Below, piece by piece: positions 52,871 to 55,391 of a DNA stretch of 64,000 nt (positions are counted from its first letter, which is position 1; each line of letters begins with the position of its first letter). The notes beneath the pieces are model-generated. The model did not search any database, was not told the DNA's origin, and saw only the letters and a list, made by a program, of their open reading frames with translations. The stretch is from contig CACJKF010000001.1 of assembly GCA_902593905.1 (NCBI GenBank), positions 349,248-413,247 on the forward strand, in the 5' to 3' direction. A program made the translations under genes and the position numbers. Origin of the DNA: an uncultured Pelagibacteraceae bacterium. GTDB taxonomy: Bacteria > Pseudomonadota > Alphaproteobacteria > Pelagibacterales > Pelagibacteraceae.

Positions 52871-53242
52871 ATGACTAATTTTGAAAGAGTTAAAAAATTT
52901 ATGGAAACTTTTGGTCAAGAAATTAAAGAAAAAGCAGAGTTTCCAAGCCAAAAAACTGTGTCACTGAGATATGATTTAATAAAAGAGGAACTTGAAGAAT
53001 TAAGAGTGGCCTTAGAAAAAAAAGATATTAAAGAAGTTGCAGATGCTTTAACTGATATATTATACGTAACTTATGGAGCTGGACACTCCTTTGGAATTAA
53101 TCTGGACAAGTGTTTTAATGAAGTTCAAAATTCTAATATGAGTAAACTAGGATTAGATGGAAAACCTATTTATAATAACAAGGGAAAAGTTATGAAAGGT
53201 CCTAAATATTTTAAACCAGATTTAAATAAATTTGTTGCATGA
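52871..53242 (+). CDS. MazG-like / PRA-PH nucleotide pyrophosphohydrolase
   Basis: This 123-residue all-alpha NTP pyrophosphatase-like protein carries the metal-binding pattern ExxE-N11-ExxD. E40 and E43 lie in LIKEELEELRVAL, and E55 and D58 in EVADALTDILYV. A family helix (GAGHSFGINLDKCFNEVQNSN) and a short C-terminal GKVMKGPKYFKPD follow. Such enzymes hydrolyse house-cleaning or signalling nucleotides. The substrate here is unknown. The stop overlaps the ATG of a 27-codon membrane-peptide ORF (ATGA), so the two are probably coupled. Confidence 0.8.
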   Translation: MTNFERVKKFMETFGQEIKEKAEFPSQKTVSLRYDLIKEELEELRVALEKKDIKEVADALTDILYVTYGAGHSFGINLDKCFNEVQNSNMSKLGLDGKPIYNNKGKVMKGPKYFKPDLNKFVA

Positions 53243-53322
53243 TAAGAAAAAATTTTCACTGGATGCTCTTAGGTATTGCAGCTGGATTGCTATTATATAT
53301 GTTGGACAAATATATTTTTTAA
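53239..53322 (+). CDS. Small membrane peptide, 27 residues
   Basis: A 27-codon ORF begins with an ATG that overlaps the stop of the pyrophosphohydrolase gene as ATGA. This coupling is typical of real genes in this window. The peptide starts MIRKNFHWML and then has a single hydrophobic span (LGIAAGLLLYML) before a DKYIF end, with basic residues at the N-terminus as expected for an inside orientation. No family is recognised and function is unknown. It fills the gap exactly: the convergent methyltransferase ends 2 bases further on. Confidence 0.55.
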   Translation: MIRKNFHWMLLGIAAGLLLYMLDKYIF

Positions 53323-53323
53323 T

Positions 53324-53992
53324 TTAAGCTTTTTTTTCAAATAAAAACGTCGCCATATTTACTTTTTTGTGAATGCCAACATAACCGTCACCTACTTGAT
53401 GATCATAGCGCTTAAATTTAACTTTAAAATTTTTGAAATTTTTTTTTAAAAAAGAATTAAATTCTTTTTTATTAACAGTAATATACTTAATTTTTGATTT
53501 ACCATCCCATTTTTTACCAAATTTTATTTTTTGAAACTGTTTACTCGAATTGATCGTCATATAATCAGTTAATCTCAAATCAAACAGTAAAAATTTTTTT
53601 GTTCTTTTTTTCATATATATTATGTATTTTTCCCAGTTATCAACATGATGCAATGTGCCAAAGCTAAAAACTAAATCAAATTTTTTGTTAATTGGGAAGC
53701 GATTGTTTTTAATTAAATAAAATTTTTTTTTTGGAAATCTTTTTTTTGCTATCTTTATCAAAGCTAACTGATTATCTAAACCAACATATTTAAAATCCTT
53801 TTTTTTTATCTTTTTAATTATTTTTACAAAGTTTCCTAAAGCACAACCTACATCAAGAAAGCTTAAGGATTTCTTTGCAGCGCTAATAAAAAATTTCTTT
53901 TCAGACTTATATAAATGCTCGATCTTAAATCGATTATTTTTATAATAATTCAACGAAGTTTTAGAAGAATAAAATTTATTCATTTCATTCAT
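53324..53992 (-). CDS. SAM-dependent class I methyltransferase, target unknown
   Basis: This 222-residue protein has a Rossmann methyltransferase core. Motif I is LSFLDVGCALGNFVKI (about residues 43-58), with an acidic motif II YVGLDNQ, the motif IV-like FDLVFSFGTLHHV and the post-motif region. The TLHHV stretch is common in methyltransferases of small molecules and glycolipids. The C-terminal half is very Lys/Phe-rich and unrecognised. No Shine-Dalgarno precedes the ATG. Instead a 32-base pseudoknot-like repeat ends 10 bases upstream, so translation may be RNA-controlled. It is the last gene downstream of tmRNA on this strand. Confidence 0.72.
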   Translation of the reverse strand: MNEMNKFYSSKTSLNYYKNNRFKIEHLYKSEKKFFISAAKKSLSFLDVGCALGNFVKIIKKIKKKDFKYVGLDNQLALIKIAKKRFPKKKFYLIKNNRFPINKKFDLVFSFGTLHHVDNWEKYIIYMKKRTKKFLLFDLRLTDYMTINSSKQFQKIKFGKKWDGKSKIKYITVNKKEFNSFLKKNFKNFKVKFKRYDHQVGDGYVGIHKKVNMATFLFEKKA

Positions 53993-54002
53993 TGCTGTTA
54001 AA

Positions 54003-54034
54003 GGGGCGTTCTGTTGCTAGGTGCCCCTAACCCC
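54003..54034 (-). repeat. Pseudoknot-like element, copy B (before methyltransferase)
   Basis: This 32-base element is identical to copy A (54139-54170) at 29 positions. Read on the minus strand it runs from GGGGTTAGGGGC to AACGCCCC. A hairpin TTAGG / CCTAG has loop GGCA, and loop bases GGC can pair with a downstream GCC to make an H-type pseudoknot. A competing stem GGGGC / GCCCC uses the same bases. It ends 10 bases before the methyltransferase ATG at 53992 and occupies the ribosome-binding region. Confidence 0.7.
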
Positions 54035-54045
54035 AGAAATTTAAT

Positions 54046-54102
54046 TCAATTAATAATTGCGTAAAGTACAACAACAACAATTAAAATTTCCCATCCGCTC
54101 AT
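54046..54102 (-). CDS. 18-residue hydrophobic peptide with strong ribosome-binding site
   Basis: ATG at 54102 to TGA at 54046 encodes MSGWEILIVVVVLYAIIN, a peptide that is almost all one hydrophobic helix. AAGGAG (54113-54108) lies 5 bases before the ATG. This is a textbook Shine-Dalgarno sequence, stronger than those of most genes in the window. The ORF lies between two copies of a 32-base pseudoknot-like element. It could be a tiny membrane protein. It could instead be a leader peptide, since most of its residues are Ile, Leu or Val, but the gene downstream is a methyltransferase, not an ilv gene. No family is recognised. Confidence 0.6.
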   Translation of the reverse strand: MSGWEILIVVVVLYAIIN

Positions 54103-54138
54103 TTCGACTCCTTTCGTTTACAGACAATTATATAGTAA

Positions 54139-54170
54139 GGGGCGTTCTGTTGCCAGGTGCCCCAGACCCC
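54139..54170 (-). repeat. Pseudoknot-like element, copy A (after tmRNA coding piece)
   Basis: This 32-base element begins 4 bases after the tmRNA P5 hairpin. The substitutions relative to copy B are at positions 6, 7 and 17 of the element. Positions 6 and 17 change together (C-G to U-A), which preserves the hairpin. Position 7 turns a U-U mismatch into A-U. It may be the final pseudoknot of the tmRNA coding piece, with copy B a duplicate. Confidence 0.7.
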
Positions 54171-54192
54171 GTAACTTAATTAACTAGGTTAA

Positions 54193-54222
54193 TTAAGCTG
54201 CAAGTGCAAATTTTTGATTTGC
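54193..54222 (-). other. tmRNA proteolysis tag reading frame
   Basis: The codons from the proposed resume codon GCA give ANQKFALAA followed by TAA. The ALAA end is the degron recognised by ClpXP-type proteases in other bacteria. The resume codon is inferred from the alanine start and by analogy with E. coli. An in-frame TAA lies four codons upstream, which limits the frame. Confidence 0.75.
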
Positions 54223-54402
54223 ATTTATAAATTAGCCCGTTACGTCGGAACCATCTCGAACGAAAGAACAGCCTTTAGACACCCGTCGATCCTAATTCAC
54301 CCCCGTAAGTTGTAAATGGTGGAGGTGGTGGGTACTGCCCCCACGTCCGTGATGTTTATTACGAAATTCGTTTATCGTCATAGTTGGAAAACCAACGCTA
54401 TT

Positions 54403-54430
54403 AATATAAAACTCTTTTTAAGAGATTCAA
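54403..54430 (-). promoter_or_regulatory. Candidate sigma-70 promoter of tmRNA
   Basis: On the minus strand TTGAAT (54430-54425) and TATATT (54408-54403) are 16 bases apart. The predicted start is near 54396, just before a GTTGG-TTTT-CCAAC hairpin of the acceptor-piece transcript. The promoter lies within the 5' leader of the divergent thyX gene. Confidence 0.5.
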
Positions 54431-54443
54431 TAAATAATTCAAA

Positions 54444-55391
54444 ATGAAACTTACCAAAGAACAAAAGCAAGAAATTGCAGACCAACAGGCTCAAAAAAGT
54501 CAAACAAAAAGAGTTACCTCTCCAGAATTAGAAAAAATTTTATACGAGGCTTTACCAGTTCTAGATCATGGATTCGTTAGAGTTGTTGATTATATGGGTG
54601 ATGATAGTTCTATAGTTCAATCTGCAAGAGTTTCTTATGGAAAAGGGACTAAAAAAGTTTCAACTGATGAAGGATTAATTAAATATTTAATGAGACATTG
54701 GCACTCTACACCTTTTGAAATGTGTGAGATTAAATACCACGTGAAATTACCAATATTTATTGCACGCCAATGGATCAGACATAGAACTGCAAATGTAAAT
54801 GAATACTCTGCTAGATATTCTATTTTAGATAAAGAATTTTATATACCAAACAAAGATCAATTATCAGCCCAATCAGTTTCTAACCGACAAGGAAGAGGAG
54901 ATTTGATTACAGGTGCCCAAGCTGATGAGGTTTTAAAAATATTAAAAGATGATGCTACGAGAACATATGATAATTATGAAAAAATGCTTAATGAAAGATA
55001 CGATGGAACAATAATAGATGAAAATAAAACTGGATTAGCCAGAGAACTTGCTAGGATGAATTTAACTTTGAATTCTTACACTCAATGGTATTGGAAAACA
55101 GACTTATTGAATTTATTAAATTTTTTATTTTTGAGAGCTGATAGTCATGCGCAGTATGAGATCAGAGTTTATGCCGATACAATGCTGGACACTGTAAAAA
55201 AATGGGTTCCAATAACACACTCAGCTTTTTTAGATTATAGGGTGGGGGCAGTTCACGTTTCTGCAAAAGGCAAAAAAGTAATACAACTTATGGCCAAAGG
55301 TGAAAAAGTCAACCACGAAAGTTCTGGCCTTTCAAAAAGAGAGTGGAATGAGTTAATGTCATCTTTTGGTTTTAGTGAAAAGATAATTTAA
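54444..55391 (+). CDS. thyX: Flavin-dependent thymidylate synthase
   Basis: ThyX makes dTMP from dUMP using FAD and methylenetetrahydrofolate, returning tetrahydrofolate rather than dihydrofolate. The 315 residues contain [12 protein letters not shown] and the ThyX signature at residues 112-124 ([13 protein letters not shown]), with N in the place of the first consensus Ser. EYDGT-like substrate contacts and [19 protein letters not shown] follow. A ThyX organism can manage without strong dihydrofolate reductase activity, which fits with the pteridine reductase-like SDR at 6717. It is convergent with mrp (20-base overlap). Confidence 0.94.

Follow-up and report, generated by a model that had tools for sequence, protein, structure and literature searches.

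The 64,000-nucleotide stretch of SAR11 DNA analysed here (the window) contains, directly behind ssrA, an 18-codon ORF, MSGWEILIVVVVLYAIIN. Judged from its sequence, we consider it probable (roughly 0.6) that this ORF is a genuine SAR11 gene for a membrane peptide, which has its own promoter, encodes a small accessory subunit or regulator, and is located in an additive island derived from ssrA.

A conserved 18-codon ORF next to ssrA

The ORF runs on the minus strand from an ATG at 54102-54100 to a TGA stop ending at 54046, and is preceded at 5 nt by the Shine-Dalgarno (SD) sequence AAGGAG (54108..54113, minus strand), which lies inside the conserved ACGAAAGGAGTCGAA. The first-pass annotation had described this hydrophobic 18-residue ORF and its ribosome-binding site in the same way, and its remark that so strong an SD is rare in the window was borne out, since among the small ORFs (12-26 aa, ATG start) 10 have an SD of at least 5 nt and only 3 one of at least 6 nt. 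The GRAVY score of MSGWEILIVVVVLYAIIN is 1.98, and the runner-up among all ATG-started ORFs of 12-26 aa with an SD in the window reaches 1.02. Dinucleotide shuffling (n = 100) yielded 0.01 ORFs per window that were equally hydrophobic and had an SD of at least 6 nt, thus the ORF is not a chance product. Just upstream, on the same strand, lies ssrA (54134..54434, minus strand), encoding a permuted two-piece alphaproteobacterial tmRNA with the tag ANQKFALAA (RF01849 match, 221.7 bits). ARAGORN extends the tmRNA to 54102, which overruns into the ORF, and the Rfam end at 54134 is the better fit.

A putative promoter for the ORF combines a -10-like TATAAT (54127..54132, minus strand), found at a similar position in most ssrA copies, with a -35-like CTGGCA (54151..54156, minus strand) that falls inside the tail of the tmRNA and was assigned by its match to the consensus only. 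With the 18 bp spacer, CTGGCA-18-TATAAT has 10 of 12 consensus matches on the strand of the peptide. In view of the near-ideal, exposed SD and the short leader of ~18 nt, the peptide is expected to be translated constitutively.

A DNA search with the ORF gave matches in 52 of the 169 genus genomes, some of them short and of low complexity. The best 20 matches, taken as loci and including that of the window, all encode the peptide with an SD, at a length of 18 aa (19 in one). A pattern covering the whole 57-nt ORF was found in 34 stretches of an 84,980-species collection, the titles of which are all Pelagibacteraceae or Pelagibacterales, and in 11 of the 397 order genomes sampled. Among the latter, the exact pattern occurred in only 10 of 51 genus genomes, thus the ORF is not universal in the genus. 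The IMG/VR contigs contained no match to the 57-nt peptide pattern, and the phage collection no match to the window stretch.

The ssrA copies keep the 18-aa length (19 in one), the ribosome-binding site and a distance of 76-78 bp to the next tail copy, despite differing flanks. For codons 6-18, the part of the ORF that was not used in picking ORFs, the in-frame pN/pS ratio was 0.42 for the ssrA copies and 0.40 for the other copies, compared to 0.62-1.47 in the shifted frames; over codons 2-18 the ratios were 0.24 and 0.33, respectively. This synonymous-site bias had been proposed as a check, and lack of frame conservation in relatives had been set beforehand as the refuting test; the frame turned out to be conserved, and the substitution pattern indicates frame-specific purifying selection, as expected of a protein-coding gene. 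Together with the kept length, ribosome-binding site and hydrophobicity, this supports the earlier suggestion of a membrane mini-protein. Apart from its limited spread in the genus, two observations count against such a gene: one genome (G127, locus L264) has a TGA at codon 4 of its tiny ORF, and the ~14 hydrophobic residues of MSGWEILIVVVVLYAIIN make a rather short helix for spanning a membrane completely.

Tail copies of ssrA and their cassettes

The ORF has the 3' tail of the tmRNA on one side and a repeat of this tail on the other, the two "structured repeats" that had been noticed before. The proximal copy is a 23-bp core (54139..54161, minus strand), and the distal one (54003..54025, minus strand), a CCTAGC variant with one mismatch, is a direct copy at a distance of 136 bp and the last of the array in the window. 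Directly past it, after 10 nt, lies a co-directional methyltransferase ORF (53324..53992, minus strand), the first ATG of which has no ribosome-binding site. ssrA was matched in 135 genomes, and in the 119 loci used, 84 have extra tail copies, 191 in total when up to four mismatches are allowed. In a stricter set of 98 loci, which omits 21 fetched loci lacking a match to the tmRNA pattern, 69 have an extra copy and none of the copies is reversed. By sequence, the tail copies are same-orientation direct repeats of the 3' end of their target, the hallmark of an additive island, and between them lie ordinary-sized ORFs on either strand.

Comparable islands have been described. In Dehalococcoides, ssrA-specific tandem islands are delimited by 20-bp ssrA 3'-end copies, and several lack integration modules, as far as the account in PMC3146451 goes; the tandem arrangement is alike, but cassette length in SAR11 ranges from 0.1 kb to a few kb, and contigs with an ssrA match had no Phage_integrase match. 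The additive flexible islands fGI-2 of Methylophilaceae and fGI1 of Actinomarinales, at tRNA genes, are outlined in PMC10872708 and PMC7771536 as small cassettes, every one of which is closed by a copy of the target-gene end. The SAR11 cassettes end likewise, but their target is ssrA and the terminal cassette may be a single tiny ORF.

A search for the peptide beside ssrA in other SAR11 genomes, as had been advised, produced 21 modules with a tiny ORF, including that of the window; MELLILVGVLYMVFG and MAEVFIVIVIIGYFFG are two of their peptides. A later tail copy was absent after 20 of the 21, and the association of tiny ORFs with the last copy gave P = 6e-7 in Fisher's test, uncorrected for kinship. 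Seven modules (L065, L162, L192, L204, L206, L217 and L219) measure 116-136 bp from core to core, and the window cassette, spanning 136 bp, consists of a putative promoter, the ORF and the core only. Alignment folding indicated a GGGGC/GCCCC stem in the tiny-ORF modules and no structure in the other cassettes. A terminator role for the tail was considered and rejected, as a scan gave no terminator-like site.

Among the listed Phage_integrase matches, compared by eye, none falls on a contig that also has the ssrA match. The matches are for the most part open frames of 309-327 aa, usually one to a genome. An integrase may act in trans on the ssrA array. In the 237 order genomes sampled, the tail core is also found in copies in other genera, in part at widely separated positions: outside the genus, the copies of G185, G275, G196 and others lie on separate contigs or are separated by hundreds of kb, so the core repeat also occurs away from ssrA. 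None of 36 cores in 30 other-genus loci was accompanied by a tiny ORF, many of these cores being the tmRNA's own tail. A separate observation concerns the cassettes that follow ssrA in L059, L040, L032, L066 and others, which often encode secreted or lipoprotein-like proteins starting like MKKLLAIIVLGL and have a common leader of ~100 bp adjoining the core. A phage origin of the core was also rejected. Eight IMG/VR contigs contain the exact core, but they hold tmRNA-like sequence with the tag-like ANADENLALAA and no integrase was recognised alongside by eye, thus the matches were not taken as attachment sites. In these contigs (L103-L110) the tmRNA tail is identical to the SAR11 core, and the neighbours are presumably ribonucleotide reductase genes.

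Related peptides in three chromosomal settings

The peptide family occurs in three settings. At ssrA (setting A), the ATG lies 76-78 bp ahead of a tail copy, and TATAAT, ACGAAAGGAGTCGAA and the tail are common to the loci while the flanks and the genes past the repeat differ; in L076 and L202 the tail has decayed beyond the reach of a five-mismatch search. In setting B, the ORF is an ordinary single gene without tail copies, and its neighbours are a divergent 49-aa ORF on one side and a convergent DctM/DUF3394 TRAP permease on the other. In setting C (L135), it is convergent to a CDP-alcohol phosphatidyltransferase. A partner gene common to all three settings was not found, which counts against an accessory subunit. 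The MSGWEILIVVVVLYAIIN family is present in 40 genomes away from ssrA, with no core nearby, and in 11 genomes at ssrA. No genome has it at both ssrA and the TRAP locus, and mutual exclusion is not claimed, the probability of no overlap being 0.06 (10 and 40 of 169), uncorrected for kinship.

The 49-aa ORF is present in 74 genomes, and 70 loci were read (G136, G086, G159 and G122 were left out). An intact tiny hydrophobic ORF was found at 48 of these, in most cases 44-49 nt from the 49-aa ORF, and the nonsense copy in G127 at one. The remaining 21 loci have no tiny ORF, and all carry a 49-aa ORF of a different N-terminal type. Many setting B peptides are MSGWEIL-like, and others, such as MEILAVIILLILVM or MSMLVFVVITYVIINS, are alike in character only. 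One locus (L297) has two consecutive tiny hydrophobic ORFs near the 49-aa ORF, MEILIMVLIVVALTK followed by MSGWEILIVVAIIYAIAN, possibly a duplication or replacement in progress.

The ssrA and TRAP loci together yielded 56 distinct peptides of 14-21 aa. None contains Lys or Arg, an absence that is in part due to the hydrophobicity filter, a filter that was not used in reading the 49-aa-ORF loci, and in 53 at least one of the first five residues is Asp or Glu. Judged by hydrophobicity, these peptides, like MSGWEILIVVVVLYAIIN, would have the one hydrophobic stretch (about 10-15 residues or longer) of a small single-helix membrane protein. Ile, Leu and Val dominate in all 56, and many are unrelated in sequence.

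The gene would be transcribed from its own promoter, with the -35 element in the tmRNA tail and the -10 element just past it, and the strong exposed ribosome-binding site would drive translation. Its product is predicted to form a single short helix in the inner membrane, acidic at the N-terminus and free of basic residues, and most likely acts as a small accessory subunit or regulator, packed against a protein or complex of the membrane. In the window, the gene would be the last and sole cassette of an additive island made of ssrA 3'-end copies. Relatives have this peptide, or one of like physical character, at another chromosomal locus. Single-helix microproteins of bacteria resemble it in having one hydrophobic helix, a strong ribosome-binding site and a history of being missed by annotation; the SAR11 peptides differ in being 14-21 aa long, without Lys or Arg, and variable in sequence at a fixed locus. 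A small membrane protein screen, as outlined in PMC10903887, was restricted to 20-60 aa.

Alternative explanations and implications

The main rival of an accessory peptide is a type I toxin of the Ibs kind, in which a helix of 14-21 aa depolarises the membrane, an antisense RNA restrains it, and the array is stabilised by addiction. IbsC of E. coli has 19 aa, and a 15-aa version that includes 10 or more hydrophobic residues is still toxic according to PMC8309996; by this yardstick the SAR11 peptides qualify as small hydrophobic peptides, matching the Ibs toxins in length, hydrophobicity and tolerance of sequence changes. At fixed spots their properties are conserved and their sequences flexible, and at ssrA the tiny ORF is nearly always the terminal cassette. 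They differ from these toxins in having an acidic residue near the N-terminus. We regard a toxin as unlikely, since the SAR11 peptides lack a basic residue, the exposed SD together with the short leader suggests that translation is constitutive, the TRAP-locus copy is an ordinary single gene, and a consensus scan of 53900-54500 gave no opposite-strand promoter-like site, bearing in mind that promoters of SAR11 need not follow the consensus. A more speculative proposal, to which we give rather little weight, is that membrane peptides 14-21 residues long, free of basic residues, acidic at the head and selected for physical character over sequence, form a terminal ssrA "nano-cassette" in which the tmRNA tail serves as both repeat and -35 element, and that they guard or stabilise the array, or the membrane, against invaders.

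The peptide might also be translated and serve the mobile cassette, for example in superinfection or array immunity, instead of a host complex. The terminal position of nearly all tiny-ORF modules and the minimal content of the window cassette suit this role; it is improbable, as most family copies are away from ssrA with no core nearby. That the ORF is incidental to a conserved DNA or RNA element, such as an attachment arm, a promoter or a truncated tmRNA-like RNA, is very unlikely: the SD region (-20 to -1) of the ssrA copies is indeed less variable than the third positions of the ORF (mean entropy 0.48 versus 1.00) and the spacing to the core is fixed, but selection on the ORF is frame-specific, the same peptide occurs away from any core, and at one and the same position peptides of this kind are encoded by unrelated DNA. 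Least tenable is the leader peptide suggested in the first-pass annotation, in which stalling at Ile, Leu and Val codons governs folding of the downstream tail hairpin and hence the downstream gene: a stable hairpin does lie ~20 nt past the ORF (-16 kcal/mol, z -2.5) and the next ORF in the window itself, that of the methyltransferase, is co-directional, but the regulated co-directional gene immediately downstream that defines an attenuator was not found, the neighbour being convergent in settings B (L084 and L080, the examples with ORFs listed) and C, the genes downstream at ssrA varied and the scan for terminators empty, while richness in Ile, Leu and Val is as in any short membrane helix and gives no support for branched-chain sensing.

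The window holds another candidate for a conserved membrane microprotein, the 27-aa ORF MIRKNFHWMLLGIAAGLLLYMLDKYIF (53239-53322, plus strand), which overlaps the stop of a PRA-PH/MazG-like gene (ATGA). In the ssrA regions, 43 of 81 ends of this gene are followed by an ORF starting with ATGA, and all 40 examples shown of the 43 encode a similar peptide of 26-27 aa.

A search of titles and abstracts found no literature on SAR11 ssrA cassettes or on the MSGWEILIVVVVLYAIIN peptide. With 18 codons the ORF is below the usual gene-calling limits, so annotation would miss it, and peptides without Lys or Arg offer no tryptic cut and would therefore be missed by proteomics. SAR11 bacteria are among the most abundant marine cells and have streamlined genomes, thus an additional gene that is conserved probably serves a purpose. 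MSGWEILIVVVVLYAIIN is a candidate membrane microprotein at the lower size limit, within an already known type of island, and should peptides of this kind prove real, the minimum size applied to bacterial membrane proteins would need revising.
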